A DNA stretch of 50,560 nt from Gammaproteobacteria bacterium (GTDB lineage Bacteria; Pseudomonadota; Gammaproteobacteria; CAIRSR01), in contig CAUYTW010000352.1 of the NCBI GenBank assembly GCA_963575715.1, forward strand, positions 1 through 50,560, in the 5' to 3' direction. Below the pieces are notes generated by a model that saw only the letters and a program-made list of their open reading frames with translations, was not told the DNA's origin and made no database searches. The position numbers and the translations under genes were made by a program. Of the stretch, positions 11,484-41,387 are shown one piece after another (positions within the stretch are counted from its first letter, which is position 1; every line of letters starts with the position of its first letter).

Positions 11484-11501
11484 TGTATCCCGATTAACAA
11501 G

Positions 11502-14030: not shown

Positions 14031-14082
14031 GACGTTCAAAATTAAATATTTTTGATTAGACGAAAAAACGTAACAATATCTG

Positions 14083-21291: not shown

Positions 21292-23178
21292 ATGCGACAA
21301 AGCAAGATTATTAATTCATCTCAATGGCGACCAATTTATGGATATCCCGGTACCTTCGATCCTTTTACCTATGGACATCTATCGGTAGTAACCCAGATGT
21401 TACGTGGTGATCGAAATTTACAGCTTGAAATACTCGTGGCACGCAATCCTGAAAAAAAAATAACCTATACCATTGAAGAACGCGCGTGGATGATTGAACA
21501 AATGCTCGATCGGCTTCCGCAATCAATGCGCAGGCGCGTTCGCGTTGCCATCGTTTCTGGGGCCACGGTCGATTATGCTTATGAACAGGGCATTGGATTT
21601 TTAATCAAAGGATTGCGTAACGCAGTCGATTATCAATATGAGCACGACCTGGCGACACTGAATGCCGATGTACAGGCGCGTCGACGACAACATTCGGTCA
21701 CCACGCTCTATATTGATCAAGTTGATGATTCCCTAAGCAACGTAAGCTCAAGCAACCTCAAACTGCTTGGTCAACTCGGCATGACGCTGCAAAATTACGC
21801 ACCTGCGTTTGATCGTGAAATATTGAAAATGCGTCAAAGCGGACTTTTATTTATTGGGGCTGCTGGCGGCATCGCTTCTGGAAAGACAACCTTCTGCGAA
21901 CAAATTGCCATTTATGCTAAAAAAAAACAACTCCCCGTTTATCATATCAGTCTCGATATGATCGGACGTAGAATCCATGAAGAAATTGGTAACGTTTCTC
22001 CACGTATTCAAATCACGCGAGACTTGATTGCTGATATGTTTGGAACCGTAGTTATAAACCCTGACGGTACGATTCATCGTAAAAATCTTGCTGCTATTGT
22101 ATTCAATGATCCGAACCGACTCAAACAATTAACTGCTGTGATGATGGAACCTATTTTGTTTTACATGGGGCAGGCAATTCAACAGCTCAATGCTGGTATT
22201 GTACTTATTGAAAGCGCTACTTTCTTGGAATATAACCTCACTGAATTAGTGGACGAAAATATGTTAATTGTTTCAGTCCCTGCCGAAGTTCAACGTGAAC
22301 GCATCGCTGCTAAGTTCACAGGCGAACAAGTAGAGCATCGACTTAAACATCAAATGAGCTACGACCAATTGCTAACGGGCATCACCACCCGTCAATCAAA
22401 GGAAACACTGCGATTGCTGCTCAATTTTCCTGGCAACAGCAACTTTACCCCAGATGATCTTGAATTTTTTTATCAAGCCTTATTGCAAGAATATCAACTT
22501 CGCCAACATGTTCAACGTACTAAATATTTATTTATTCCAAAATTTCTGGTCATTTTGGATCCTAAAAAATTTTTCATGGAAATAGAAACCAATTATAATC
22601 AGCACAAACTTGGGTATCACAATCAGCTTCACATCAAGGAAATGCTAACGAATTTTGAAACCATCAAGCCGCAACTCGGGCTAGACATTGCGACCGAGCT
22701 TGCATTTTATTTAGCGATTTTGCTTCATGACATCATTTACGATCCCGCAAAAAAAGATAATGAAGCCCAAAGCGCAGTGTATGCAGATAACTTCATTTGT
22801 CGGCATGTGATTAGCCCTGAAATTGATATTGCGTTGGTAAAACGTCTTATCTTCGCAACCGCAGGTCATTTTGAATTACAAGGCAGCCTTACTTTTCTTG
22901 AACAACTAATACTTGATCTGGATAAATTAATTCTCGCCTCGCCCTGGCCACGCCTCCTTGATTATGAAACTCGTATTTACACAGAATATGCTCCGATTTA
23001 TCCACGCAAAATTTATATAGAAAAACGTAGTGTCATTCTTAAACGTTGGCTGGATCAACAAACGGAAGGGAATCCAATATTTGTCAGTGAATTAATAAGG
23101 GAAGGTTATGAAAAAACTGCTACGGTTCAACTTCAACGGCTAATTAATTACCTAAAGTTAGAATCAGAATCTTTATAA
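21292..23178 (+). CDS. CoaD-CoaE-HD fusion: pantetheine-phosphate adenylyltransferase, dephospho-CoA kinase and HD domain
   Basis: This 628-aa protein combines the last two steps of CoA synthesis with a hydrolase-like domain. Residues 14-170 are CoaD-like: the nucleotidyltransferase signature GTFDPFTYGH (20-29), KGLRNAVDYQYEHDLA (106-121), and SNVSSSNLK in place of the usual ISSTxVR. Residues about 185-370 are CoaE-like: P-loop GGIASGKT (192-199), HISLDMIGRRIHEE as the dephospho-CoA-binding region, and VSVPAEVQRERI. Residues about 430-600 resemble the HD superfamily COG4339: YHNQLHIKEM (H443, H447), LLHDIIYDP (H479-D480), then DNEAQSA. The ATG has an AGGA site 6 nt upstream. Coding is continuous over all three parts. 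Animals fuse CoaD and CoaE activities, but bacteria generally do not. Whether this replaces or supplements separate coaD and coaE genes is unknown. Confidence 0.85.
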   Translation: MRQSKIINSSQWRPIYGYPGTFDPFTYGHLSVVTQMLRGDRNLQLEILVARNPEKKITYTIEERAWMIEQMLDRLPQSMRRRVRVAIVSGATVDYAYEQGIGFLIKGLRNAVDYQYEHDLATLNADVQARRRQHSVTTLYIDQVDDSLSNVSSSNLKLLGQLGMTLQNYAPAFDREILKMRQSGLLFIGAAGGIASGKTTFCEQIAIYAKKKQLPVYHISLDMIGRRIHEEIGNVSPRIQITRDLIADMFGTVVINPDGTIHRKNLAAIVFNDPNRLKQLTAVMMEPILFYMGQAIQQLNAGIVLIESATFLEYNLTELVDENMLIVSVPAEVQRERIAAKFTGEQVEHRLKHQMSYDQLLTGITTRQSKETLRLLLNFPGNSNFTPDDLEFFYQALLQEYQLRQHVQRTKYLFIPKFLVILDPKKFFMEIETNYNQHKLGYHNQLHIKEMLTNFETIKPQLGLDIATELAFYLAILLHDIIYDPAKKDNEAQSAVYADNFICRHVISPEIDIALVKRLIFATAGHFELQGSLTFLEQLILDLDKLILASPWPRLLDYETRIYTEYAPIYPRKIYIEKRSVILKRWLDQQTEGNPIFVSELIREGYEKTATVQLQRLINYLKLESESL

Positions 23179-23207: not shown

Positions 23208-23245
23208 CAAGCCCCTCAATCCCGTAGGCTCATGGGATTCTTGAC
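23208..23245 (+). repeat. hairpin with TTCTTGAC tail at convergent gene ends
   Basis: AATCCC and GGGATT form a 6-bp stem in CAATCCCGTAGG...CATGGGATT, preceded by AAGCCCC and followed by CTTGAC. The layout resembles the repeats at 26945 and 48379. It covers the last codons of the lytic transglycosylase gene and may also serve as the terminator between the converging genes. Confidence 0.4.
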
Positions 23246-24018
23246 TGTTCATCACGCAGCGTGATCCGCTTTAACCTGGCCTCACTTTGCCAACGTAGAC
23301 GCCTAGTAATCAATTGTTGTTTGTCATTTTCTGAAAATTTGCAGACACGACCTATTCGGCAAGAATCAAATTTTGGAAAAACAGCATCACTACGCATCAA
23401 TGAAGAATACTGATTAAACTTCTGGATAAGACTTGACGCTGACCGAGTTTTTGAAGGAACCCCGAGGATGCGCCAATTCTTTCGATGAGCATTCCCTTCT
23501 ATTCCTTTTGGTGGAATAGATTCATAATCATGCAAAATATCTAATACTCGTTCTACGTATTCCTTGGTTTCTGGATATGGTGGAAGACCTCCATAGCGAA
23601 TCACGGAATTTTCTCCGGCATTATATCCGGCGAGTGCTAAGGACAGGTCGCCTGCAAAGCTATCAAGCAAAAATCGTAAATAACGTACACCACCAGTAAT
23701 ATTTTGTAATGGATCCATGGGATTCTCCACGCCAAATCGACGCGCGGTGTCCGGCATTAATTGCATCAATCCCATAGCGCCCTTAGATGAACGAGCATCG
23801 GAATAAAAACCAGATTCCACCATGATAACGGCCTTGACCAAGGCCGCGTTTACTCCCCACGCGTTAGTCTCGCGTTCAATGAATGCGTGAAAGGCAGGAG
23901 TAACCGTCTCGGCTGATGGTGTCACGCTGATGGCCAACAAAAATAGCGCCAGAATATCTCTGGCGAGAGTACTTTTTGATTTTAGTGTTTGTTTCAATCC
24001 TGCGTCTGACTTCATCAT
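23230..24018 (-). CDS. lytic transglycosylase (SLT domain), periplasmic
   Basis: The 262-aa protein has an N-terminal hydrophobic segment (about residues 20-36) acting as signal peptide and then an SLT lytic transglycosylase domain. The catalytic Glu lies in AVIMVESGFYSDARSS, followed by KGAMGLMQLMPDTARRFG and ALAGYNAGENSV, the three typical family blocks. It cleaves the MurNAc-GlcNAc bond of peptidoglycan with 1,6-anhydro product formation. The C-terminal ~90 residues are basic and of no recognised family. It lies only 12 nt downstream of the PilO-PilP fusion, so a role in opening the cell wall for the pilus-like machine is likely. The last codons coincide with a hairpin repeat. Confidence 0.88.
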   Translation of the reverse strand: MMKSDAGLKQTLKSKSTLARDILALFLLAISVTPSAETVTPAFHAFIERETNAWGVNAALVKAVIMVESGFYSDARSSKGAMGLMQLMPDTARRFGVENPMDPLQNITGGVRYLRFLLDSFAGDLSLALAGYNAGENSVIRYGGLPPYPETKEYVERVLDILHDYESIPPKGIEGNAHRKNWRILGVPSKTRSASSLIQKFNQYSSLMRSDAVFPKFDSCRIGRVCKFSENDKQQLITRRLRWQSEARLKRITLRDEQSRIP

Positions 24019-24030
24019 TTGATGAATAAA

Positions 24031-24876
24031 CTACGGTTTACTAATGGGAACAGAGCGGAATTTCATCACGTAGCTTTGCTTACCGTTGGGCGTTTCTTCG
24101 ACCAAATTCACACGATCCGCAAGAACTTTATCGATTTTTTTATTACCATCAAGCATATCACCAACGTAATAATCACTACGATCAATAGTCGCGTAAGGTC
24201 CTTTCTGATCCTTGCCAATACCAGTAAGACGATAAATCCAGGTAAGATCCACGCTAGGATTGACAATTCGTTGCTTGGCGTCAAAGGCGAAACGTTGAAA
24301 AGGATTACGTTTATCTTTGAGTTCTACCATTTTTTTCAATGCAACAAGGCGCTCACTAGCCAGCGGCTTACCGTCATTCCGTGGTGTTATGGTAAAGGAA
24401 ATAACATGTTGCGGCAGTGATTTATATTTATTGTCTTTATCCAATTCACCCATTGAATATGGATGCACCTGAAGGTTGGTGATTGTTACATCTAACGATT
24501 CCATATCAGATGAGAAATGTAAAAATTTATAGTAATCAACCAAAATTTCGATGGAAAATTTAATACGATCTTGTGGATCCGGTGTGAGCTTTCTAATAAT
24601 AATATCATTTTTTTTAGCGATATCGTTAAAATGCCTCAAGAAATCTGAAATAGAATGAATAACAAAACCAGAGGAATTATCATCCTTAGTCAATACAGCA
24701 TATTGTTCTTCAAGATCATTATATTCATTGCGCAGATAGCTATTAATCTTCTGGAGATCCGCAATGATTAATTGACGATCTAGATACAAGGCTCGATAGC
24801 CAAAAAATAACATGGAAATCAAAAAATAAACAGATGAGATAATCAAGATTTTATGGGCTTTTATAAATTCATTCAT
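24031..24876 (-). CDS. PilO-PilP-like fusion, pilus/secretion alignment complex
   Basis: The 281-aa protein has one N-terminal membrane helix (about residues 10-27), a coiled-coil stretch, and a PilO/GspM-like ferredoxin-fold region to about residue 165. After NPFQRF near residue 192 comes a PilP/GspC homology-region-like beta domain: DLTWIYRLTGIGKDQKG, AIDRSDYYVGD-type strand (written IDRSDYYVGDMLDGNKKI), and VLADRVNLVEE. In canonical type IV pili PilO and PilP are separate, with PilP a lipoprotein that contacts the secretin PilQ. Here both parts form one chain in the periplasm. It follows the PilM-PilN fusion by 12 nt. The assignment rests on domain order and neighbours more than on strong motifs. 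Confidence 0.65.
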   Translation of the reverse strand: MNEFIKAHKILIISSVYFLISMLFFGYRALYLDRQLIIADLQKINSYLRNEYNDLEEQYAVLTKDDNSSGFVIHSISDFLRHFNDIAKKNDIIIRKLTPDPQDRIKFSIEILVDYYKFLHFSSDMESLDVTITNLQVHPYSMGELDKDNKYKSLPQHVISFTITPRNDGKPLASERLVALKKMVELKDKRNPFQRFAFDAKQRIVNPSVDLTWIYRLTGIGKDQKGPYATIDRSDYYVGDMLDGNKKIDKVLADRVNLVEETPNGKQSYVMKFRSVPISKP

Positions 24877-24888
24877 GGCTGTTCCTTT

Positions 24889-26841
24889 TTAATGTGCCTT
24901 AATACCAGTAGTTTTCTCTATCATTAAATTACGTTTTTCTATTGTTTGTTGCATATTGGAGATAGGATTTCCATTAGATGATTCAGTAATTATTTGACGC
25001 TTACTTGGATCGTAATATGCCTCTAGCGAAAAATTCACAACGGGTTCTGCATCGGCAGTATCAATGGAAAAACCAGTAAAAGCAATTTCCTTGAAATCCA
25101 TCATAAACATTGACTCTTCTTTCGTAAGCGCATCCAAAAAATCCGCAATAACTCCAACGTGGCCTTCTGTTCTTGGCAGGGCCGCGCCTTTCATGACCAA
25201 TTTAGCGGAAGAGAGTATGACTTTACCGGCGTTTTGCGTGGCACCTTCCAGATAGACATCAGTCAACCATAAATGATCGGTGATATGTTTACTAATGGCT
25301 AAAAATTTCTCGGTCCAGAGCACTTTATTTTCTTGATCGCTGGTTACCGAGACCGGTTTGGTACGATAAATTTTTTGGCGTAATGCGTCGCTCTTAGTTA
25401 TATTGGCAGAATAACTATTCATTTGAGATCGAAAAGATCGATCAAGGCTTACATATTGTTCATACGCGCCATATAACAAACCAAAAACAAATACACCCAA
25501 CAAGATGAAATAAGTTTGTTCGTTGTCAATATCCTCGCCCGTCGTGTCACCCTCTGCGCCACGACGAGAGAACTTTTCCATGATCCTAGAAAAGAAGCCA
25601 CTTTTTAGTTGTTGTTGTCTAGTAGAACGTCGTGATGACCGCCTTCCTGTTCCTGAAGTTTCCTTACTCATCTCCCGAGCCATTTTATGATAAGGAGTCA
25701 TTCCTTCTTTTTCACTAAAAACCAATTTAATCTTGCCAACTGAGATTAATGGTCCCTCGGTACCCTTGAGCAAATTAAGAGTGATGGGAAATGGACGCTT
25801 AATAAAGGTATCGAATAATCTATCAGTACCTTCCAAAATTTCGGTTTGAATATCCGATGGTAATCCGGCACGCAACCAGGTATCCAGTCCACGAATACGC
25901 CTGGTTTCTCCAAGAATGGACATTCGTCTGGGAAGCCCGCACGCGCGCTGGGATCGGAAATATTCCAAAGTCGCAAAAATTTCTTCATTTAGCTTGCGCA
26001 ATAATGGTATTAGCGCCTGATCCTGTGGACTAAGTGAATGCCCATCGACTCCGGAATGAAATAAGTCCGAAAGATAATCTCGTTCCCTGAGCGCAGTGAA
26101 TATTTCCTTGATGGGTACTCCAGTTTTCTCGGCCACGGTGGCAGCCAGCATGGTAATACCCACCGGCACATGACGAACCATCACTGCCCCGATTCCAACA
26201 TGCGCCAACATAATTTCGGTGTATTCGGCACCAACGAGGATGGCACCATAAGATTCATTTGGATAAAGTTCTGCCTCCTTCAATAGAATTGCTTCCGCAG
26301 GGACGATCTCCCAAACCTTTGAGGCAATATCGCCTAATCCCACCAGAATTCCACGCAGCAACGCCGTATTCACGAAAGCATAAATGCCATTAGCGCGCGT
26401 TCCTTGTTTTGTGACTCCAAAGTCGGTGTAGCCAAAGGAAATATTATCGCAGTTGAGCAGCTCTTGACCGAATTCCCGAACTCGCGCAGGACTTGCCGCC
26501 CGCAATGTCTCTATTTTGGCATCAGAAAAGGCCACGTCCCTTGAATCCCACAATAGATAGCAGTGGGTCAATCGTTTCCGCAGCCGCGATGGAATCCCTA
26601 CTAGGGCTGTTCGTAATATTTGTTCTGAATTCAATCCTTTACCATCAGTCGGAATCGCTTCAGCGGCATCCGATAACTGTACAGGATTGCCCGCCGGATC
26701 GAATGCCCGAACAGAACAGCTCGTGGACCCGAGATGAAGAAATAAGCTGGCCCCTTGTTCATGGACCGAATCTTGATTAATCGTTTTATCTTCAGCGGTA
26801 GACTTTGATTTTGAAAACCACATGGCATTTCCCATCGCCAC
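24889..26841 (-). CDS. PilM-PilN-like fusion (GspL-like), pilus/secretion platform
   Basis: The 650-aa protein begins with an actin-like PilM/GspL-type domain (about residues 30-375; LFLHLGSTSCSVRAFD, then SYGAILVGAEYTEIMLAHVG). A basic Ser/Arg-rich cytoplasmic linker follows (GTGRRSSRRSTRQQQ near 405). One membrane helix at about 452-472 (YFILLGVFVFGLLYGAYEQYV) leads to a periplasmic PilN-like region. In type IV pili PilM and PilN are separate and bind each other; in type II secretion GspL unites both. The start is uncertain: GTG 26841, ATG 26835 or ATG 26823. It is separated by 172 nt from the pilC-like gene, a gap that holds a hairpin repeat. Confidence 0.7.
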   Translation of the reverse strand: MAMGNAMWFSKSKSTAEDKTINQDSVHEQGASLFLHLGSTSCSVRAFDPAGNPVQLSDAAEAIPTDGKGLNSEQILRTALVGIPSRLRKRLTHCYLLWDSRDVAFSDAKIETLRAASPARVREFGQELLNCDNISFGYTDFGVTKQGTRANGIYAFVNTALLRGILVGLGDIASKVWEIVPAEAILLKEAELYPNESYGAILVGAEYTEIMLAHVGIGAVMVRHVPVGITMLAATVAEKTGVPIKEIFTALRERDYLSDLFHSGVDGHSLSPQDQALIPLLRKLNEEIFATLEYFRSQRACGLPRRMSILGETRRIRGLDTWLRAGLPSDIQTEILEGTDRLFDTFIKRPFPITLNLLKGTEGPLISVGKIKLVFSEKEGMTPYHKMAREMSKETSGTGRRSSRRSTRQQQLKSGFFSRIMEKFSRRGAEGDTTGEDIDNEQTYFILLGVFVFGLLYGAYEQYVSLDRSFRSQMNSYSANITKSDALRQKIYRTKPVSVTSDQENKVLWTEKFLAISKHITDHLWLTDVYLEGATQNAGKVILSSAKLVMKGAALPRTEGHVGVIADFLDALTKEESMFMMDFKEIAFTGFSIDTADAEPVVNFSLEAYYDPSKRQIITESSNGNPISNMQQTIEKRNLMIEKTTGIKAH

Positions 26842-27013: not shown

Positions 27014-28063
27014 CTAACGTCCATGTCCAACCGCCTTACCCATATCAAATATCGGCAAGAACACTGCCACCATCATTCCCGCTACGGCAAGCCCAACAAT
27101 AATGGTGAGAATTGGATTAATCAGGGCTGTCCATCGTTCTAGTTCATTATCCAGCAATCGTTCAAAATAATCTGCTGCTGATAATAATAAAATATCTAGA
27201 GTACCTGCTTCCTCGCCAGCGGCAATCATCTGTAAAACAATTCCCGAAAAGACCTCGTATTCACGGAAAGAATCAGCAATTCCCTTGCCGCGTTCGATGT
27301 CGAAAATAATCGAATAAATCAAATCTTCAATATATACATTAGATACCGTTCCTGCCGCCAGCTTTAGGGATGGCAATAATTCTACTTCGTTTTGTAGTTG
27401 GACGGAGAAGGTACGCAAAAAACGACTGAGTGCTGCCAGGCGTATCAAATTGCCAAACACTAAAATTCGCAATTTATACTTATCCCATAAATAGCGTCCT
27501 TCACTGGTGGCTATCCAAAAGATAAAGGAAAATACCATCACGCCAATGGTTAGCATTACCAAATGCCAATTTTGCCGCCACCAATCGGCAAAAGTCATCA
27601 GCCATTGGGTGATTATGGGCAATTTGCTGCCAAAAGATGCGAACATTTCCTTGAATCGCGGCAAGATAAAAAAAATCATGCCGTTGAGCACGAAAATGAA
27701 CGAAGCAAACATAAAAATAGGGTACGTCAATGCAGAACGTATTTTATCCCGAGACTCATTGATCTTTTTTAGATAAATTGCAATATGTTCAATTGAGTCG
27801 CCCAATCTCCCCGACATCATCCCGGCGCGAATGATGTTTACATAAATTTGATCAAATACATCGGGAAATTCGGCAAGCGCATCGCCAAAATCCACGCCGT
27901 GGCGGACATCTTCCACCACCGCATCCATGGTGTTGCGCAAAACCCCGTGAGGGGTTTCCTGGGTCAGGCTTTCGAGCACATCCACGAGCGGCAACTGGCT
28001 CCTAATCATCGACGACAACTGGCTGGTAAAAATCAATAAACTGGAAAGCGGTACCGCAGCCAT
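27014..28063 (-). CDS. PilC/GspF-family inner-membrane platform protein
   Basis: The 349-aa protein belongs to the T2SF family, which forms the inner-membrane platform rotated by the assembly ATPase. Two repeated cytoplasmic helical domains are seen: LLIFTSQLSSMIRSQLPLVD at the N-terminus and LSRFLRTFSVQLQNEVELL in the second half. The family GE-motif is in MIAAGEEAGTLDILL. Membrane helices lie near residues 110-135, 170-190 and 315-340. It is about 50 residues shorter than E. coli or Pseudomonas PilC, lacking the usual N-terminal extension. Its ATG overlaps the stop of the ATPase gene in TAATG, so translation is coupled. Confidence 0.9.
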   Translation of the reverse strand: MAAVPLSSLLIFTSQLSSMIRSQLPLVDVLESLTQETPHGVLRNTMDAVVEDVRHGVDFGDALAEFPDVFDQIYVNIIRAGMMSGRLGDSIEHIAIYLKKINESRDKIRSALTYPIFMFASFIFVLNGMIFFILPRFKEMFASFGSKLPIITQWLMTFADWWRQNWHLVMLTIGVMVFSFIFWIATSEGRYLWDKYKLRILVFGNLIRLAALSRFLRTFSVQLQNEVELLPSLKLAAGTVSNVYIEDLIYSIIFDIERGKGIADSFREYEVFSGIVLQMIAAGEEAGTLDILLLSAADYFERLLDNELERWTALINPILTIIVGLAVAGMMVAVFLPIFDMGKAVGHGR

Positions 28064-31000
28064 TACATCATCTCCCCAAGCACACGGATGACCTCCTGGA
28101 AGGTCGTCACTTCATCCTCCACCAAGGTAAGCCCGTGCCGGATGAGCGTAGTCATTCCTCTTTCCAGGACATGTTTACGCAGATCGTCGGCGCTAAAAAT
28201 TGGAGACATGATGATTCTGCGCGCCTCATTCGTCATCTCGAAGACTTCAAAAACTGCCTGACGACCTAAATAGCCGGTCTCACGACAATATTCACAATTA
28301 ATTCCCCGCCCCTGGGCGTATTCCATTTCTGGATCAATTTTAATTCCTAATTGCTGCAATCGCTCGTCGGAGATACCTTCTTCATTTAATTCTTTCAGGA
28401 TGTGATTTCCCATAACTGCCGTTTTGCAATGCGGGCAGATCTTTCTAACTAGGCGTTGAGCAATGGCTAGGGTTAAAGCCGTGGCCACTAAAAAATTTTC
28501 GATTTTCATATCCAGCAAGCGTGGAACCACACCCACGGCGTCATTGGTATGAATGGTGGAAAAGACTACATGGCCTGTTAACGATGCCTGAATGGCCATA
28601 TTGGCGGTTTCCGCGTCGCGGCACTCGCCAACCATGATGACATCAGGGTCCTGGCGCAACATGGTGCGCAAACCACTGGCGAAGGTCAAATTAATCCGGT
28701 GATTGACTTGCATTTGATGCACCCCGCCGAGCCGATACTCAACCGGATCTTCAACGGTCAGAACATTCTTGCGCGTCTTGTCAATGGCGCTTAAACAGGA
28801 ATAGAGCGTGGTAGTTTTACCCGATCCAGTTGGGCCACTGATCATGATTAGACCATAGGGCGCCATTAGCTTATCTCTCAATAGCCGCAGGTCGCGGGCC
28901 AGCAAGCCGAGAGATTCCGGTGAAGGACGCAAGGCGTTCTTGTCCAACAATCGAAACACAATTTTCTCACCGTAAACCGTGGGAAAAGTAGAGACGCGAA
29001 CATCAATTGGATTTTCTTTGATAATCCGCCCGAAACGACCATCCTGTGGCCGACGTTTTTCGGCAACATCCATTCCAGATATAATTTTGATACGAGAAAC
29101 TACCTCGGAGTGGAGATTTTTAGGCAAGTTAATTTCATCGTGTAAAATACCATCGATACGATTTCTCACTCCCAGAAAATCTTCCGCTGGTTCTATATGA
29201 ATATCTGAGGCACCTTGGCTCGAAGCTCGATGAAGAAAATAATCAACCATCTTTGGTACATCGACTCCAGCAATGTTATCCCGAATTTCGTTTTCCTCAG
29301 TCGCCGCTATATCGATGATGCTGACATTTTCATCGCTCTCGCCAAATGCTTCTTGGCTATTTTTTAAACGTCGCGTGACCTGAAAAAAAGCGTCAGGATG
29401 CACTAGAATCCATTGCAACGGATAACCGGCGAGGCGTTCGACTCGATCACGCGTAATTAAGTCAAAAGGATCGATAGTAGCAACCCGTTCTCCGCCATCA
29501 TCGCTATCAAGCAGTGCCAGTGCGCCGAAACGGTGCGCACGCATGGCGGACAGCCAGGATGGTTCCGGTCGTTTAAGCTGGTTCACCAATTCTTTTTCAG
29601 TTTCGATCAAGGGAACACTGAATTTTTTGGCAACCATTTTGAAAATATCCATCCGAAATTTTAGCGAGGCATCTTGGGCCAATACTCGAAAAAAGGTCTG
29701 TCCGCTGATCTGTGCTCGAACTGCTAGAGAGATTGCCTGTTCTCGGCTAATAAAATTGGCATCAATCAATTCTTTGGCGAAACCCGAAAGAAATTGAAAA
29801 ATGGCATGATGATTTATTATATCATTTTCTATTCGTTTGGATTGCGCCCGTGATTCAAGAAATGAATTAATGGTATTAATCGTGTCATTAATGGCGTGTG
29901 CATCTTCGGTATTCTCGTCAACCGCTACTACGACCGTTGCTTCATCCGAACCAGAATTTTTATTATCAACGACTAGGGTATCTCCGGCGGGAGCCGTAAA
30001 ATTATTCTTTTCATTCATTACAACCGTAGCGGCGTTGGTGTCGGTCACCAGGGTAAGCTCAACATTATTTTCATTCGTTGTTTTTTTAATTGTTCCCTTG
30101 TCGTGATCCAATAAAAGGAAAGGATGGAAAGAAGTTTGTGTATCATCTATTGTGGCGATTGTAGGAGTGATAAATTTTAGCTGCAAGCGCGTTCGTCCAA
30201 TTAACAACTCACTGCCAGTACGCACTGGCATGGAATGGATTAAATCCTCGCCATTTAATTGAGTACCATTGGCACTCCCCAGGTCTTCCACCATCCAGCC
30301 GGTATTTTCCCGCCAATAAATCAAACAATGTCGACGCGAGGCGTGTTCGTCAGCCACTAGGAAATCCGATTGACTCCCCTTGGTTTTGAAATCACGTCCA
30401 ATTAAATATTCTCGCTTGCCCGGCTCCCCCGACAACACTTCTGCCGTTCCCGTAGAATAAATGAGTGTTACCTGGAGTTCTGCGTCAGCTCCAGCCTTAA
30501 CAACGGAAGTTTCCTTTACCTCATTACGACGCGGATTAGCAACCATGGTTGCGTCATTTTTTTCAGGTAAGGAGATGAGGGTTTCATCATTCAAACTTCC
30601 CCGATGAATATTGGCTTGTACTAATTGAGTTGCATCCAACGCAACATCAGCCAAAGCTGATTTGAACACTGGTGCTTGTGTGAACAATAGGGTCTCATCG
30701 GCACTATCTATTTTCTTTTCCGCTTCACCACGCAGGACATGAGTTTGATAGGCGTTGATTAGTTGTGTCTTATCTAGTTCACAATCGATTCCTTGTGAAT
30801 AGGATGGTTGGGGCGCACGATTGAATACCATGGTTTTATTCGCTGGGTCATCGTCCTGGAAACCATCCCCAATCTGCACCGCGATTAAAGTTCGACCTAA
30901 CAGAAGCGTATCCCCAGAAGACAAGGGCGATACTTCTTTTAGCAATACGCCATTGAGCCGCGTGCCGTTGGTGGATTTCAAATCTTTTATCCACCAACCG

Positions 31001-31212
31001 TCAGACGAAGTATTCCAGAATAATTCGCAGTGTCGAATTGATACCAGTTTATCTTCAATGGTCAAATCGACCACTTGTTCTCCCGGCAGGCGACGCCCTA
31101 CCACAGCTTGTGTACATTCCGGTCCAATTCGTTCATCACGAGTTTTACCTTGAGCATCCCGCAATCGTAACCATAATTGCACTGATTTATTATTATCGCT
31201 ATCGCCAACCAT
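28063..31212 (-). CDS. double-FHA PilB/GspE-family assembly ATPase
   Basis: The 1049-aa protein fuses two forkhead-associated domains to a type IV pilus / type II secretion ATPase. FHA1 (about 35-112) shows VVGRRLPG, VSIRHCEL and LKSTNGTRLNG. FHA2 (about 268-345) shows LIGRDF, ASRRHCLIYW and DLGSANGTQLNG. Thr-rich linkers lie between and after them. A MshEN/T2SSE N-terminal region covers about 465-620. The ATPase domain has Walker A GPTGSGKTT (K799), Walker B with E863 in DVIMVGECRD, STIHTNDA, and the zinc tetracysteine C926/C929/C973/C976. It should power pilin or pseudopilin polymerisation. FHA domains bind phosphothreonine, so Ser/Thr kinase control is plausible; no such kinase is in the window. 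GAGGTGA (31219-31225) is a strong ribosome binding site 6 nt from the ATG. Confidence 0.9.
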   Translation of the reverse strand: MVGDSDNNKSVQLWLRLRDAQGKTRDERIGPECTQAVVGRRLPGEQVVDLTIEDKLVSIRHCELFWNTSSDGWWIKDLKSTNGTRLNGVLLKEVSPLSSGDTLLLGRTLIAVQIGDGFQDDDPANKTMVFNRAPQPSYSQGIDCELDKTQLINAYQTHVLRGEAEKKIDSADETLLFTQAPVFKSALADVALDATQLVQANIHRGSLNDETLISLPEKNDATMVANPRRNEVKETSVVKAGADAELQVTLIYSTGTAEVLSGEPGKREYLIGRDFKTKGSQSDFLVADEHASRRHCLIYWRENTGWMVEDLGSANGTQLNGEDLIHSMPVRTGSELLIGRTRLQLKFITPTIATIDDTQTSFHPFLLLDHDKGTIKKTTNENNVELTLVTDTNAATVVMNEKNNFTAPAGDTLVVDNKNSGSDEATVVVAVDENTEDAHAINDTINTINSFLESRAQSKRIENDIINHHAIFQFLSGFAKELIDANFISREQAISLAVRAQISGQTFFRVLAQDASLKFRMDIFKMVAKKFSVPLIETEKELVNQLKRPEPSWLSAMRAHRFGALALLDSDDGGERVATIDPFDLITRDRVERLAGYPLQWILVHPDAFFQVTRRLKNSQEAFGESDENVSIIDIAATEENEIRDNIAGVDVPKMVDYFLHRASSQGASDIHIEPAEDFLGVRNRIDGILHDEINLPKNLHSEVVSRIKIISGMDVAEKRRPQDGRFGRIIKENPIDVRVSTFPTVYGEKIVFRLLDKNALRPSPESLGLLARDLRLLRDKLMAPYGLIMISGPTGSGKTTTLYSCLSAIDKTRKNVLTVEDPVEYRLGGVHQMQVNHRINLTFASGLRTMLRQDPDVIMVGECRDAETANMAIQASLTGHVVFSTIHTNDAVGVVPRLLDMKIENFLVATALTLAIAQRLVRKICPHCKTAVMGNHILKELNEEGISDERLQQLGIKIDPEMEYAQGRGINCEYCRETGYLGRQAVFEVFEMTNEARRIIMSPIFSADDLRKHVLERGMTTLIRHGLTLVEDEVTTFQEVIRVLGEMM

Positions 31213-34098: not shown

Positions 34099-37000
34099 TC
34101 AAGCAGCTATCCGCGCTTGAAAGGCATGCACGGTCTCCAATGCGGTTTGATAATCGAAGGAATCGATCTGTCGCGCGAGCTGTTCCGTTTTTTGACCAAA
34201 TGCTTGGAATAGCATCTGTTGGTTTGCCGAGAATAGTTTGCGCACCGTGGTATCGTTAGCGACAAGCAGGTTTTCCAGCCGATCCAGTAAACTCAACACA
34301 TCGGATCGCGCGGGAGGAATGAATTCCGCTTGGCTGGGTGTCTCGGTCGGAAGATTGGCGACAGACCGACCCAGAGTATCCAGTGCTTGAGCGAGATCTT
34401 CCAGAAGGAGTTGCAAGGTCTGGGCATCATTCCGATTTTGGCGTAAAGCCGCTTCGAGATTGGTCGCGGCTTTTTGTAAATCGGTCAGGCCCAGGCTATC
34501 TGCTCCTCCTTTGAGACCATGCGCCAATTTGAGAACCTGAGCGGCATCTTCCTGTCGACGACCTTCCAGCAGATTCCTAATTTCCGTCAGGTCATCGCTG
34601 TGACGTTCAAAAAATTGATGAAGCATACGGATATAACGTTCAACATCTCCTCCCATAAGTTGAATCGCCTTGCGTAAGGCTGGCTCATCAAGATCACGTA
34701 ATTGCATCGGTAAATTTTGAAGAAAGATTGACCCATCATCCGTGGGCGTGGCGACAGCAGATACTCCGGCGACGTGCGGTGGCAGCCAATGGAGAATTTT
34801 GGAAAAAAGGACATCTGGGTCTATCGGTTTGATAATGAAATCACTCATGCCGGCGACCAAGCAGCGTTCCCGATCCTCGACAAAGGCATTAGCCATCATC
34901 GCCAGGATGGGTAGGGTCTGAGTGCTCCCAAGCATTCGCAGCCAGCGCGTTGCTTCCGGGCCATCCATGATCGGCATATCCATATTCATCAGGATCACAT
35001 CGAAGGATTCGCCGCTTTCCACGCGCCGTACCGCCTCGACGCCGTTTTCAGCCAGTTCTACCACAAGACCCACGCTGCGCAGTAACCCCATGGCGATTTC
35101 TTGGTTGATGGGATCATTCTCCACCAGCAATATTCGAGCGCCACGATAATCACGAGCCAAAATAGATTCTGCTTCCTCTTGCCACGCAATTTTTCGCTCC
35201 ATGAAAACCGGAGTCATTCCTTTGACCAAGCGCGCGGTAAACCAAAACGTGCTGCCCTTTTTCAATTGACTTTCAGCCCCAATCTCGCCACCCATCAACC
35301 GAACCAACTGTCGAGCAACCGCAAGGCCAAGGCCAGTGCCACCGTAACGCCGAGTCATCGAACTATCGCCCTGCTCGAAAGCGTTAAAAATTTTAGACAG
35401 CATCTCGGGAGCAATGCCGATACCCGTATCTCGCACCTCGAAACGCAGCAGGATGCTGGTATCGTCTTCTTCTAGTTTCCACGCACCAAGAGTGACAGTA
35501 CCCTGATGCGTGAATTTGATCGCGTTGCTGGTCAGATTGATCAAAACCTGAACGAGCCGCGCTGGATCGCCACGGAGGTTGATGGACGGATGCCCAGATT
35601 TAACCACTAATTCAAGGCCCTTACTTCGCGCCTGATCGGAAAGCATGGTGGCGACGTTATTCAAAATATCATCAAGGAAGAATTCTGTTTTTTCCAACAT
35701 GAGTTTGCCGGCCTCGATCCGCGAAAGATCGAGAATATCGTTGAGTAATCCGAGCAAATGACGACCGGCATTGTTGATGTTGTTGAGCTGATCCGTTTGT
35801 TCTGGGGTAATCTTGCTCCGTTTCAAAAGTTGAGTCATGCCCAAGATAGCATTCATCGGCGTGCGAATTTCATGACTCATGTTAGCGAGGAAATCAGATT
35901 TCATCCGCGTTGCGGATTCCGCCATTTCCTTAGCACGCCGTAGCGATTCCACCGCCTCGCGCTCCCGAGTTACATCGGCGAATGTCCATACCGACCCACT
36001 GGACAAATCCCCAGCGATAATGATTCTGCCACTCATGTGACACCAAAAATATGATCCATCCTTGCGTCGCAACTTTTCCAATCGTTGGTGGATCTCGCCG
36101 CGTTTTAGGTCAGAGTATGCCTGACCAACCTCGATATAGCTCTTTTCGTCAGGATATAAGCAGCGTGTTGACTGGCCGATCAATTCATCATTGTCATAGC
36201 CAAATAATTCATTTAATTTGCAATTGCATTTCTGAAAGATACGATCTTTAATGAGGGTGATGCCAATCGTGGCCGAATCAAAAATTGCATACAATTCTTC
36301 ATTGGCCTTGCGAATTACCTCCTCAGATTGCTTGCGTGCGGTAATGTCACGGAACACCATAACCGCGCCAATCAATTCTTCGGCCTTGTACATGGGGGTT
36401 GTTGTATATTCAACGGGAATTGGCGTACCGTCCTTGCGCCATAAAATGTCATCGTCGATTTTTCGCGGGATACCATCCTGGATTGTCTGAAATACTGGGC
36501 ATTGCTCAATCGGATGATTGCCACCATTAAGATGCGCGTAATGCACCAGGTTATGCAGCGGCTGGGCAAATAATTCTTCAGTTGTATAACCCAACAAAGC
36601 AGTTACTGTAGGATTAACAAGGATTGTCAGATTTTCTTTAGATATACCGATGATGCCCTCACTAACTGACGATAAAATTAATCGACCACGTTCTTCCAAG
36701 GCGGCTATACGCGCAATTAAGTCACGCAAATTTTCCACCATGACATTTACCGCCACGGAAATTTTACGTATTTCGCCATGGCTTTTAATGTCCGCCCGCT
36801 GATTGAGGTTTCCGCACGCAACCATTTCGATTACCTTCCCCAGCTTGCGTAAGGGATCGGTTACCAACCATCTGACCACAACTGCGGTACCCAAGGTCAG
36901 TAATACCGCCGTGATTGCAATTGCGCCCATGATGGTGAACAGATCACGGCGAAAGCTGTCAATCAGGATGGTCTGTCGATATCCAACCTTGAGCGTCCCG

Positions 37001-37416
37001 ATCACCTCCCTGGATTTATTAACAATTTTATGTTCATAACGCAATAATGCCGGATCGTTGATCTGTTCTGGGTGCAGCTTGGTAATGGGATGGTCATGCG
37101 TGTCATAAAACACCACGAAGGCAATATCCCGATCCTTGCTCATTTCCTCGGCGAAGGATTCTAGATCTGAAAATTCAAAGTTTTCGATATAATAGGCGCT
37201 AATTTTGGTCAAAAAGCCCGACATGCCCTCTACTTTGGAAACCAATAAGTCGCGGTGAATCGCTTGGCTTTTTATTGCCATCGTCATGCCCAATCCAGAA
37301 AGGATGAACACAATCAGCGCGAGCATGGGAAATAATATTCGGTTTCCGATGGAGCTATCGTAATTAACGTGCGGCACCATGTTGGTCACTACCAGGATTT
37401 TGATCGGAAACTTCAA
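34099..37416 (-). CDS. PAS-containing hybrid histidine kinase with degenerate receiver and Hpt domain
   Basis: The 1105-aa protein has membrane helices at about 28-47 and 160-182 around a periplasmic sensor region, a HAMP domain (183-237), two PAS domains (about 243-365 and 370-488), HisKA with H515 in [14 protein letters not shown], HATPase ([23 protein letters not shown]), a receiver (760-880) and an Hpt domain with H966 in AHGLKGGADSLG. In the receiver the phospho-acceptor position is Asn (N811 in LMNMDMP), the second acidic residue is Asn (N767 in VENDP) and the Thr is Met (M841); only E766 and K863 remain. The related kinases nearby keep all of these. The first codon is a TTG; ATG 37380 is an alternative. 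The gene stands 39 nt downstream of a PhnD-like binding-protein gene. Confidence 0.92.
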   Translation of the reverse strand: MKFPIKILVVTNMVPHVNYDSSIGNRILFPMLALIVFILSGLGMTMAIKSQAIHRDLLVSKVEGMSGFLTKISAYYIENFEFSDLESFAEEMSKDRDIAFVVFYDTHDHPITKLHPEQINDPALLRYEHKIVNKSREVIGTLKVGYRQTILIDSFRRDLFTIMGAIAITAVLLTLGTAVVVRWLVTDPLRKLGKVIEMVACGNLNQRADIKSHGEIRKISVAVNVMVENLRDLIARIAALEERGRLILSSVSEGIIGISKENLTILVNPTVTALLGYTTEELFAQPLHNLVHYAHLNGGNHPIEQCPVFQTIQDGIPRKIDDDILWRKDGTPIPVEYTTTPMYKAEELIGAVMVFRDITARKQSEEVIRKANEELYAIFDSATIGITLIKDRIFQKCNCKLNELFGYDNDELIGQSTRCLYPDEKSYIEVGQAYSDLKRGEIHQRLEKLRRKDGSYFWCHMSGRIIIAGDLSSGSVWTFADVTREREAVESLRRAKEMAESATRMKSDFLANMSHEIRTPMNAILGMTQLLKRSKITPEQTDQLNNINNAGRHLLGLLNDILDLSRIEAGKLMLEKTEFFLDDILNNVATMLSDQARSKGLELVVKSGHPSINLRGDPARLVQVLINLTSNAIKFTHQGTVTLGAWKLEEDDTSILLRFEVRDTGIGIAPEMLSKIFNAFEQGDSSMTRRYGGTGLGLAVARQLVRLMGGEIGAESQLKKGSTFWFTARLVKGMTPVFMERKIAWQEEAESILARDYRGARILLVENDPINQEIAMGLLRSVGLVVELAENGVEAVRRVESGESFDVILMNMDMPIMDGPEATRWLRMLGSTQTLPILAMMANAFVEDRERCLVAGMSDFIIKPIDPDVLFSKILHWLPPHVAGVSAVATPTDDGSIFLQNLPMQLRDLDEPALRKAIQLMGGDVERYIRMLHQFFERHSDDLTEIRNLLEGRRQEDAAQVLKLAHGLKGGADSLGLTDLQKAATNLEAALRQNRNDAQTLQLLLEDLAQALDTLGRSVANLPTETPSQAEFIPPARSDVLSLLDRLENLLVANDTTVRKLFSANQQMLFQAFGQKTEQLARQIDSFDYQTALETVHAFQARIAA

Positions 37417-37455
37417 ATGCGGGGAAACTAAAGCATATTGTCACGAAAATATCCA

Positions 37456-38316
37456 TCAGGGCAACGTGAAATCAAACGCGCTATTCATGCCCGCTCGTTT
37501 CAATAATAAAAAACTATGCTTGAAATCTTTTTCCGTGGTGCGAATGAAACCCTGAATTTCTAAACTAGCACGTACTTGCTTGGCAAGTTCAGATTGATCA
37601 TTATGCACTCCCAATAAAATATTAGTAAGTTGATCCAGCGTCCATTTATCCATTTTGACCGAAACGAGTAGTGTATTATCTGGGTTCTCTCCGTGATCCT
37701 CACCGACTTTCTCCAGGGTCGAAAATTGAAAACGATCCTTGTCCCATACGCGATTCTTGATAATAGCTACGTCTGCCATGCCACGATTCAAGCTATCAAG
37801 CGCGGCACTGTGAGAAGCGGCTTTCATTACCGTCACACTGTCCCGATCCACGCGCCCCGGCAAGGAGTAATAAAAAATTTCTCCAGCAGAAGCAAGAGGA
37901 GTGAATATAAGACGCTTGTCACTAAAATAGTTGACACTGCCGGTAAATGGCGGCGCACCCTTTGCCGCTATTACCACCGCCCAGTACGTGCTCTGACCAT
38001 CGCTGGAAACCGGACGAACCACGGGCCTAGTAAGACCTTTAGCAATCAGGATGGCGGCAATGGCAGAGCCGCTAAACATCGCATCGATTTCTCCGTTGGC
38101 GAACATTCGGGCGGCGTTTGGATAATTAGGTGCTGCGATCAATGAATTCCTGAATCCTTTATCATTGAGATAATCCATTAACGGTTTAAATTTTTGGGCA
38201 TCCCCCCGACGCGATTGCATGATGCCGATTTTGCAATCGGCCACCGCCGGTAATCCATAAAAAATAACAATCAAGGCCATTAAAAGAAAAAAAGAAGATC
38301 GTAAAACCCGTAACAT
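37456..38316 (-). CDS. PhnD-like periplasmic substrate-binding protein
   Basis: The protein of about 286 aa begins with a signal peptide (LRSSFFLLMALIVIFYGLPAVAD) and has a type II binding-protein fold like the phosphonate/phosphite binding protein PhnD. Visible are KIGIMQSRRGDAQKFKPLMDYL, FANGEIDAMFSGSAIAAIL, RLIFTPLASAGEIFYY and ALDSLNRGMADVAIIKN. No ABC permease or ATPase gene is adjacent. It sits between two hybrid kinases in the same orientation, so I infer that it is a ligand-presenting partner of one of them, most likely the membrane-bound 1105-aa kinase. I start at ATG 38316; the ATG at 38352 would add 12 residues before the signal peptide. Confidence 0.8.
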   Translation of the reverse strand: MLRVLRSSFFLLMALIVIFYGLPAVADCKIGIMQSRRGDAQKFKPLMDYLNDKGFRNSLIAAPNYPNAARMFANGEIDAMFSGSAIAAILIAKGLTRPVVRPVSSDGQSTYWAVVIAAKGAPPFTGSVNYFSDKRLIFTPLASAGEIFYYSLPGRVDRDSVTVMKAASHSAALDSLNRGMADVAIIKNRVWDKDRFQFSTLEKVGEDHGENPDNTLLVSVKMDKWTLDQLTNILLGVHNDQSELAKQVRASLEIQGFIRTTEKDFKHSFLLLKRAGMNSAFDFTLP

Positions 38317-38385
38317 AATCGATGATCCGTTTTTGGTGGGAAAAAATAGCATTATCGGAAACCCACCAACCCCGAGGGGGACGCA

Positions 38386-40788
38386 TTATTCAGTTTGTTT
38401 TATTTTGAATGTACGGATAATCTCCAATGCAGCTTGATAATCGAATGAATCGATCTGCCGTATGAGTTGTTCCGTTTGTTGACCAAATACCTGGAGAAGC
38501 AATTGACGGTTTGCAGAAAAAACTTTGCGCACAGTAGTATCATTCGCGATCAGCAAATTTTCTAGCCGATCCAGCAAATTCCGAACATCAGGGCTGGATG
38601 ATCGAATGGTTTCCGACGATCTTATCGCCTCAATGGAAAAATTGACGACTGGCAATGATTGGCGTAAAGCATCTAGTGCCTGACCCAGTGTTTCCAGCAG
38701 AGGTTCCAGGATTGCGGCATCATTTCGATTTTGACGCAGGGCCGCTTCGAGTTGCGCTGCGGATTTTTGCAAATGGCTCAGACCCAGACTACCCGCCGCA
38801 CCCTTGATACTATGCGCCAATCTAATTACTTGATTGATATTATCCTGTCCTGGTCGATGACTCTCCAATAAATTCTTGATTTGCGTCATATCATCGCCGT
38901 GACGTTCGATAAATTGGCGTACCATTCGCGCATGGCGTTCAACATCGCCTCCCAGAACCTGAATAGCTTTTTGCAATGCGGGGTCGTCAATAGTACTTAA
39001 TTGTTGAAGATGGAGGTTTTTAATAGTGGCAATATTATCTACGGGCACGGCAACCGCTGGAGAAATCGATGCGGTACGTTGTGGTAGCCATTTAATCAAT
39101 TTGGAAAAAAGAACATCGGGGTCAACCGGCTTGGCGATGAAATCACACATGCCGGCTGCCAAGCAGCGTTCTTGATCTTCGGCGAAAACATTGGCCGTCA
39201 TCGCTAGAATTGGCAAGGCTCGACCTTTTTCTAGCAAACGAAGCCGTCGGGTTGCTTCGGGACCATCCATAATTGGCATTTCCATATCCATTAAGATCAC
39301 GTCAAAGGATTCGCCGCTCTCCACGCGCTGCACCGCCTCCGCTCCATTTTCCGCTAGTTCCACAATAAATCCCGGATTTTTTAATAACCCGATAGCGATT
39401 TCCTGATTAGTGGGATCGTCTTCCACAAGTAATATCCGCGAACCACGATAATTACGAGTCAAAATAGCCTCAGGGTTATCCTGCCACGCAATTCGATTCG
39501 TTACTACGGCGGTCGTTCCCTTGACCAGTCGTGCGGTAAACCAAAAGGTGCTACCCTTGCCTAATTGACTTTCTGCATCGATATTACCGCCCATCAACCT
39601 GGCTATTTGTCGAGAAACTGCCAGACCCAGCCCAGTGCCACCATAACGCCGAGTTGTGGAAGTATCCGCCTGCTCGAAGGCACCAAAAATTCTCGGCAAT
39701 ATTTCAGGCGCGATACCAATACCAGTATCTTGGACTTCGAAACGCAGCAATATGCTAGTGTCGTTTTCGGCTAATTTGCGAGTAAGCAGAGTGACGCTAC
39801 CGCGATGCGTGAACTTGATAGCATTGCTGGTCAGATTAATCAAAACTTGACTGATTCGCGTCGGATCGCCACGTAAATTCATCGGCAGCGGTTCGGCCTT
39901 CACCAGCAATTCAAGTCCCTTAACCCGAGCCTGTTCGGCAAGTATTGATGCTACGTTATTCAACAAGTCATCAACAAGAAATTCGGTTTTCTCCAGCACC
40001 AACTTGCCCGCTTCAATTTTGGAAAGATCGAGAATATCGTTGAGCAGTCCGAGCAAATGACGACCGGCGCTGTTGATGTTGTTCAGTTGATTTGCTTGTT
40101 CTGAGGTAACATTGCTTCGTTTCAATAGCTGGGTCATGCCCAGGATGGCATTCATCGGTGTGCGAATTTCATGGCTCATGTTGGCGAGGAAATCCGATTT
40201 CATCCGTGTCGCAGATTCGGAACGCATCCGCGCCTCGTGTTCCTTAGCATTAAACAAAGCCACTGCCACTAAGCGGCTAACCGCTTCAGCCAGAGGAAGA
40301 TCATTAAAAGAAAAATGTAGTTTATATTGTGGATTGAATAATTGAAGAACACCGAACAGACAATCTTTAGCAATCAGCGGCACCGATAATATGGAACGAG
40401 TCCGAAAACCCGTTATTTGATCAAAGGCGGGGTTGAATCTGGGATCGGCGTAGGCATCATAAACCAACAAGGAGCGTCGATGTAAGGCTGTCCAGCCTCC
40501 AATTGTGGTTTCGTCTTTTGCCAATCGGGTGTTCTGTAAGCCACTCGTTTTGTAACCCTTGACAATATAAAAAACAAGATCTCCCCGTTCAGTATCGTTT
40601 AACAGAATCGAGGATGCCTCCGTTTTTAGCGCACGGGAAGTAATCTGGAGTGCTGCATCCAGCACGGTTGCAGTATCCAGATTACCCGCGATGAATTCGC
40701 TAACCTGGATGAGAACATCCACAAAATTAGATGACTCAGTGCCCGCCACCAGGGATGTAGGCATATTTTCCAAGCATTTTCTGTTCAT
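38386..40788 (-). CDS. GAF-domain hybrid histidine kinase with receiver and Hpt
   Basis: The 800-aa protein has no membrane helix. An N-terminal GAF domain (about 25-180; [41 protein letters not shown]) precedes HisKA with H205 in [14 protein letters not shown], HATPase ([33 protein letters not shown]), a receiver with [12 protein letters not shown]501 in [11 protein letters not shown] and T531, and an Hpt domain with H659 in [12 protein letters not shown]. All phosphotransfer residues are intact. From the HisKA domain on it is very similar to the 1451-aa and 1105-aa kinases, so the three are paralogues with exchanged sensor parts. It is cytoplasmic, so the signal is likely internal. Confidence 0.93.
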
Positions 40789-40810
40789 TGACTAAAATTG
40801 CGGCATGGAT

Positions 40811-40843
40811 ACCCACGGCGATTAGCTGTGGGGTGATTGGCAC
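40811..40843 (+). repeat. hairpin repeat with TGATTGGC tail
   Basis: CCCACGGC and GCTGTGGG form an 8-bp stem (one G-T pair) with loop GATTA, followed by GTGATTGGC. It matches the repeats at 26945 and 48379 in orientation and tail. It fills much of the 77-nt gap between the response-regulator stop and the GAF-kinase start. Confidence 0.55.
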
Positions 40844-40865
40844 TGGTTTAGAGATTACTACTCGT

Positions 40866-41255
40866 TTACTTATTTATGCCGAGTACCGTGCGCGCCACTC
40901 GCAGTAATACAACTGGCTCTACGGGTTTTTCCACGAAATGAGCCGGTTGCTCCTGAATAGGTCTGCCTTCCATATGGACGCGGACTTCGGTGAGCGTTGA
41001 CAGCATGATGACGGGAATTGCCGAGGTTTGCGGGTCTTCATGCAATTCAAGAAAAGTATCATAGCCATCCTTGACCGGCATCATAACGTCCAGAACAATA
41101 AGATCCGGCTGTTCCTTTCGCGCCAGACGCAGCCCCTCCTCGCCATTTTTTCCTATTATTACCTGAGCCGGCAATTTTGATTCAAGAACGGATTTAGCGA
41201 AATTTCTACAATCCGCCTCATCATCCACGACTAAGACCTTCCACATCTTGCTCAT
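40866..41255 (-). CDS. single-domain response regulator (CheY-like)
   Basis: The 129-aa protein consists only of a receiver domain. Acidic residues are in VLVVDDEADC, the phospho-acceptor is D56 in LIVLDVMMPVKDG, the Ser/Thr position is S86 in VIMLSTLTE, and the Lys is K110 in FVEKPVEP. There is no output domain, so it must act by protein binding or as a shuttle between the phosphorelay kinases around it. It lies 77 nt upstream of the GAF hybrid kinase gene and 132 nt downstream of the 1451-aa kinase gene. Both of these gaps hold hairpin repeats, and its GGAG ribosome binding site lies within the upstream one. Confidence 0.92.
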   Translation of the reverse strand: MSKMWKVLVVDDEADCRNFAKSVLESKLPAQVIIGKNGEEGLRLARKEQPDLIVLDVMMPVKDGYDTFLELHEDPQTSAIPVIMLSTLTEVRVHMEGRPIQEQPAHFVEKPVEPVVLLRVARTVLGINK

Positions 41256-41258
41256 CAG

Positions 41259-41375
41259 AGTCTCCGAGAAACCCCGCCCTTATAGGGCGGGAAGGAAAGG
41301 AAACGGTTTTGCAACCGTCCAGTAACAATGCCGGTCTTTCCCGACTGCCAGCCCTTACGCGGCCCAAGTCATGGG
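41259..41375 (+). repeat. hairpin repeat, long copy at the response-regulator start
   Basis: The plus strand has TCTCCGAGAAAC, a stem CCCGCCCT-TAT-AGGGCGGG, a second stem ACGGTT-TTGC-AACCGT, and then GCCGGTCTTTCCCGACTG and CAGCCCTTACG. It follows the element at 48031 over about 115 nt, with changes that preserve pairing. On the minus strand it ends 3 nt before the response-regulator ATG at 41255 and provides CGGAGAC as ribosome binding site. Confidence 0.65.
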
Positions 41376-41387
41376 TTTGCGTACCCA

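Follow-up and report, generated by a model that had tools for sequence, protein, structure and literature searches.

Two FHA domains on a PilB/GspE-class motor ATPase: a putative kinase-controlled switch for a type IV pilus

Why should the motor ATPase of a type IV pilus carry two domains of a kind that binds phosphothreonine? The question is raised by a gene on the minus strand of a 50,560-nucleotide stretch of Gammaproteobacteria bacterium DNA (GenBank assembly GCA_963575715.1, contig CAUYTW010000352.1; this whole stretch is called the window below), whose positions 28063-31212 encode a 1049-residue protein joining two forkhead-associated (FHA) domains to an ATPase of the PilB/GspE class. 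An earlier note, made from the letters alone, had recognised this combination without naming the strand, and had proposed that the motor is under Ser/Thr kinase control. The answer favoured here is that the protein is probably the extension motor of a type IV pilus that a dedicated kinase switches, the FHA domains reading phosphorylated linkers of the motor itself. Three findings go beyond the earlier note: arrays of phospho-acceptor-like threonine motifs in the linkers, a kinase gene next to the motor gene in relatives, and pocket Arg and Ser residues that never vary among the FHA domains aligned.

An intact PilB/GspE-class motor with two FHA domains

The gene starts with ATG and has no internal stop; the plus-strand reading of the same interval is riddled with stops and was rejected. 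That it encodes an intact PilB/GspE-class ATPase bearing two FHA domains is confirmed: Pfam recognises FHA with 109 bits across two stretches (cut-off 20.7) and T2SSE with 393 bits at residues 652-1043 (28084..29259, minus strand, as are all parts of the motor), both far above chance, and each FHA domain alone scores 58-61 bits in a six-frame search of the genome. The FHA signatures quoted earlier are present as given, with GRR, SIRH and STNGT in domain 1 (residues 11-117; 30862..31182) and GRD, SRRH and SANGT in domain 2 (residues 241-350; 30163..30492). The same holds for the ATPase core, where Walker A (GPTGSGKT at 793), a Walker-B-type motif (IMVGECRD at 859) and the Asp/His boxes are all in place, together with a zinc tetracysteine formed by CPHC at 926 and CEYC at 973 (C926, C929, C973 and C976), whose four cysteines are invariant across the first six orthologues.

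When considered by class, the closest solved ATPases are PilB and GspE, and the motor stays below the equivalog cut-offs of both NCBIfam models (474 bits against 675.65 for PilB, TIGR02538; 480 bits against 630.25 for GspE, TIGR02533). The TadA-family model gives 55 bits, compared with 480 for GspE, which places the motor outside the CpaF/TadA class, and in a midpoint-rooted tree of ATPase domains it falls into a separate, well-supported group (100/99). Motors of the PilB class are known to be controlled mainly via cyclic di-GMP (c-di-GMP), PilZ/FimX-type partners and inhibitor proteins. Residues 438-622 (29347..29901) form a helical, MshEN-like N-terminal region, scoring 22.4 bits, slightly below the Pfam cut-off of 23.1. 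The c-di-GMP motif RLGxx[LIV][LIV] has no match in this region in the 11 FHA-bearing members checked, and is present in the motor's own paralogue C316. Control by c-di-GMP through the MshEN-like region of the motor was therefore rejected.

A structure prediction, which had been suggested earlier as a check, supports the FHA assignment. In the AlphaFold model of the full-length protein, residues 11-117 and 241-350 form beta-sandwiches with a predicted local distance difference test (pLDDT) of about 80-90, with disordered linkers between; the ATPase part is weak (mean pLDDT 61), and this model was used for the FHA domains and for disorder only. FHA2, which is the copy aligning with the single FHA domain of more distant orthologues, reaches a pLDDT of 91 when modelled alone. 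Its model resembles phosphopeptide-binding FHA domains, namely FhaA (3po8/3poa, Z 15), GarA, OdhI and DgcB with its own phospho-tail, with further matches to MDC1 and Rad53; by sequence, its closest solved relatives are GarA and OdhI. In the FHA family, the Arg and Ser of the pocket are phosphothreonine contacts. When 14 FHA domains out of 11 motors were aligned, the equivalents of Arg273 and Ser292 of FHA2 were kept in 14/14, those of Asn315 in 13/14 and the His in 12/14, with a mean column conservation of 0.48. With both the predicted fold and the pocket residues kept, the FHA domains of the motor are putative phosphothreonine readers.

Threonine motifs in the linkers and the kinase of orthologous loci

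Both linkers, residues 118-238 (30499..30861) and 351-437 (29902..30162), are predicted to be disordered, with pLDDT values of 22-36, and it is here that the arrays lie, with motif threonines at 149, 174, 195, 211 and 222 in the first linker and at 387, 412 and 426 in the second. The motif was defined as a Thr with an acidic residue before it and two hydrophobic residues after it (acidic-Ala-Thr-hydrophobic). The window motor holds eight such motifs against a mean of 1.0 in shuffled sequences, a count reached by 0/5000 shuffles. Similar enrichments were found in G001 (8 motifs, shuffle mean 1.25), L059 (9, 0.36), L058 (5, 0.35) and L060 (4, 0.29), each count being reached in at most 2 of 10,000 shuffles. 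Among motors fetched after the motif had been defined, L110 has 10 motifs (shuffle mean 0.85), L113 has 8 (0.94), L109 has 5 (0.37) and L112 has 3 (0.41; p 0.005). Clade members without a recognised FHA domain hold 1, 0, 0, 0 and 1 motifs.

Over 62 instances, the consensus has D or E at position -2 (53/62) and A at -1 (43/62), then V/L/M/I and V/L/M; the acidic and hydrophobic positions were partly imposed by the definition of the motif, the Ala was not. A survey of 571 distinct open reading frames, all from the fetched loci, returned at a threshold of at least 4 motifs per 200 residues the FHA-PilBs, one FHA protein (L110:2132-3493) and one secretin-like protein. This additional FHA protein adjoins another Ser/Thr kinase; here the motif goes together with FHA and kinase a second time, independently of the motors. 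In that pair (L110:315-3493), the second kinase combines a cyclic-nucleotide-binding domain with Pkinase, and the FHA protein has EDATVMMG and DDATLMVG in its N-terminal part. On this pattern, the linker threonines are predicted as likely phosphorylation sites.

A candidate enzyme for these sites is encoded nearby in the relatives. In L058, L059, L060, G001 and G002, the pilus-cluster gene that lies next on the upstream side of the motor codes for a Ser/Thr kinase whose C-terminal part is an FGE-sulfatase domain; this kinase gene itself comes after a type IV pilin gene, either directly or past one for a TPR protein. The kinase adjoins the motor likewise in G109, G145 and G240, with the pilin also found in G109 and G145, and it stands beside the motor in G224, where the contig ends within the motor gene; G172 has a diverged form of the neighbourhood. 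An intact Hanks kinase is thus found next to the motor in nine orthologous loci plus one diverged, although the genomes are related, which makes these counts interdependent, and L058 and L059 coincide with the loci of G169 and G105. The kinase sequences have kept the G-loop, the VAIK Lys, HRDxKPxN, DFG or DLG, and APE (or SPE). For the window's family, kinase and motor are both present in G000, G001 and G002, and both absent, at orthologue level, from G003. A kinase-profile search of 48 genomes of G109's class found eight kinases in seven genomes, 8/8 of them beside a motor of the clade; six of these motors have FHA domains and two do not (G083 and the second copy of G169). The FHA-PilB architecture spans several families, belonging to two classes or more, and lies within a supported clade; the sample covers one phylum, and by the taxonomic grouping used, the window genome is in the same phylum as the orthologue-bearing Magnetococcales metagenome-assembled genomes, but in another class.

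Some members of these loci differ in their make-up. For instance, the kinase of G002 (L062:10103-12598) consists of two tandem kinase domains followed by the FGE-sulfatase domain. Two motors of the clade (L115:8577-11102 and L116:8034-10628) have a long N-terminus with no recognisable FHA domain, array or kinase neighbour; these N-termini are possibly decayed FHA domains, and were not counted as support. Finally, acidic proteins with DDYTRT, DDTTRA or DDTTRV are encoded directly after PilC at L109:13177-13848 and L110:13237-13827, the former without a Pfam match; judged by these motifs, they are possible further phospho-acceptors.

A proposed phospho-switch, its rivals and the window locus

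The mechanism proposed for these parts would run as follows. The dedicated kinase (Pkinase plus FGE-sulfatase) would phosphorylate threonines of the acidic-Ala-Thr-hydrophobic motifs in the motor's linkers, and the motor's FHA domains would bind the resulting phosphothreonines, be it within a subunit, between subunits of a hexamer or between hexamers. This would rearrange the N-terminal region over the ATPase and the platform and turn pilus assembly on or off, and a PP2C phosphatase could reset the switch. We infer all three steps (phosphorylation of the linkers by this kinase, FHA binding and the mechanical consequence); the effect could be of either sign. The kinase control put forward in the earlier note is strengthened by the kinase directly upstream in orthologous loci, by the orthologous kinase and a PP2C-type phosphatase in the window's genome, and by the conserved pocket and predicted fold of the FHA domains, and it stays a proposal. 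A more specific version, in which a multi-site threonine array, one kinase per operon and readout by the motor's own FHA domains would give graded or cooperative control of extension in place of c-di-GMP and MshEN, is advanced tentatively, as falling a little short of an even chance.

Several observations weigh against a switch of this kind. The motif was first spotted by eye on the window protein, and two motors with a single motif each, G002 (by the strict definition) and the diverged L114, do not rise above shuffled sequences. L112 has no kinase nearby, and its FHA domain has His in place of Asn. Conversely, two kinase-adjacent motors, L111 (one motif) and L117 (none), lack FHA and array, and at these loci the kinase must act on something else. 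Members with kinase and no FHA, taken together with the one that has FHA and no nearby kinase, show that either part can be lost without the other. In addition, the proposed switch leaves the FGE domain of the kinase unaccounted for and, in the genome of the window itself, motor and kinase genes lie apart, the gene upstream of the motor being unrelated (NnrD-type, by eye).

The most serious rival, though an unlikely one, is that the FHA domains would read phosphothreonines on other proteins, such as the platform, the PilM/N/O-like proteins, the kinase or an adaptor, and thereby bring the motor into an activated complex, the arrays being minor or binding other FHA proteins. This would have a precedent, since in some type VI secretion systems (T6SS) phosphorylated TssL recruits Fha (PMC10482370), and would suit both the extra acidic, Thr-containing protein after PilC in L109 and L110 and the further FHA proteins of the window's genome. 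However, it leaves unexplained why arrays cluster in the FHA-motor itself and are all but missing from FHA-less members of the clade. It is improbable that the FHA domains are instead structural or phospho-independent docking modules, a role proposed for those of EssC, and the linker repeats low-complexity spacers. A pair of FHA domains without phosphothreonine-binding motifs is indeed known from EssC of the type VII secretion system (T7SS), where it contributes to protein stability (PMC4925161), and the FHA copy number of 0 to 2 across the clade could be read in the same way; yet the pocket Arg and Ser are invariant here, unlike in EssC, the kinase neighbours most FHA-bearing loci, and the repeats hold a specific consensus. 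That an ordinary type II secretion or type IV pilus ATPase, as its normal PilB/GspE-class core might suggest, acquired a functionless FHA fusion by chance in one lineage is contradicted by the occurrence in several families and at least two classes, the supported clade, the conserved pocket and the conserved kinase linkage, and hardly deserves consideration.

In the window's genome, the kinase lies on a contig other than the motor's because the pilus cluster is split into three retained pieces. The first is the window block, in which the motor gene shares a start/stop overlap with the gene of the PilC/GspF platform protein (27014..28063) and is followed by a 650-residue protein kept beside it (24889..26841), a 281-residue protein (24031..24876) and, as last gene, an SLT lytic transglycosylase (23230..24018); all of these genes are on the minus strand, and G001 and G002 share their order. 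The 650- and 281-residue proteins have no Pfam or NCBIfam match, and are called a PilM/PilN-like fusion and PilO-like, respectively, by position only. The second piece, on contig C11, holds the orthologous kinase (928 bits and 77% identity to that of G001), preceded by a 650-residue protein that resembles the one ahead of the G001 and G002 kinases, and the third, on contig C334, holds secretin, a small protein, a lipoprotein and the major pilin, ordered as in G002. The split could still have arisen from an assembly error, even though all three pieces lie inside contigs. A search of the same genome for kinases and PP2C phosphatases, which the earlier note had advised, finds both: besides the kinase on C11, a Stp1-type PP2C phosphatase is encoded elsewhere, beside another kinase and an FHA protein, and no PP2C was recognised in the pilus clusters. 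The genome also encodes additional FHA proteins and four further PilB/GspE-type motors, 0/4 with FHA. A kinase and a PilB on contig C233 of this genome were considered as a partner pair and rejected, being about 15 kb apart and the kinase not being the orthologue.

The rest of the window holds three further features. At 21292-23178 (plus strand), one open reading frame combines a CoaD-like nucleotidyltransferase with the dephospho-CoA kinase CoaE, followed by a C-terminal stretch that by eye recalls an HD domain (LLHDIIYDP); fused CoaD and CoaE are the eukaryotic arrangement, and unusual in bacteria. At 34099-45743 (minus), large hybrid histidine kinases containing receiver and Hpt domains are encoded three in a row; two of them share 69% identity across 614 residues, pointing to a local duplication. 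Finally, a low-GC island (36%) at 10449-14039 (minus) encodes an 845-residue protein with a chemoreceptor-like four-helix bundle, a cyclic-nucleotide-binding domain and a Na/sulfate symporter.

Comparison with known systems

The earlier note knew of no described arrangement of this kind, which appears to hold for the PilB/GspE class and not for pilus motors as a whole. FHA domains are known on motors of the CpaF/Tad class, namely class III CpaF (PMC12019362) and Myxococcus KilF (PMC8460266), whereas the PilB/GspE-class case is apparently undescribed: no literature was found on FHA with a PilB/GspE-class motor, its kinase neighbour or the linker arrays, in a search that left subscription papers mostly outside, and none on an FHA-PilB arrangement among papers on Magnetococcus pili and kinases. 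Like class III CpaF and KilF, the window motor is a pilus ATPase with N-terminal FHA, joined, as in class III CpaF (PMC12019362), via a disordered region. In contrast to both, it belongs to the PilB/GspE class and has a tetracysteine, an MshEN-like region and two FHA domains. Additional to what is described for CpaF and KilF are the threonine-motif arrays and, in relatives, the kinase gene alongside.

Another parallel is the T6SS, in which PpkA switches assembly on through Fha (PMC10482370). There, a Ser/Thr kinase, an FHA protein and a phosphatase (PpkA, Fha and PppA) exert post-translational control over the assembly of an envelope machine, much as the kinase and FHA domains of the present system would, possibly with a PP2C phosphatase encoded elsewhere; however, Fha is a separate accessory protein and not the motor, and the T6SS is unrelated to pili. 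The binding of a phosphothreonine of the same protein, as proposed for this motor, is found in GarA, whose FHA domain binds its own N-terminal tail (PMC5448819), in OdhI and in Bdellovibrio DgcB, the structure match 6hc1 showing the DgcB FHA domain with its own phosphorylated N-terminal peptide. In these proteins, a short acceptor tail serves a metabolic or cyclase output; motors of the present kind, being hexameric, carry arrays of as many as 10 putative sites. With MshE, the c-di-GMP-regulated MshEN motor of the MSHA pilus, the window motor shares the PilB class and a regulatory N-terminus, and the L109 operon includes an ExeA/MshM-like AAA protein (by eye) that recalls the MshE system, but no member checked has the RLG motif in its MshEN-like region. 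If the proposal holds, type IV pili would have a directly testable Ser/Thr-phosphorylation switch, multi-site and placed on a rotary hexamer, and the motor could naturally be set beside CpaF and KilF, whose own FHA domains lack an explanation.

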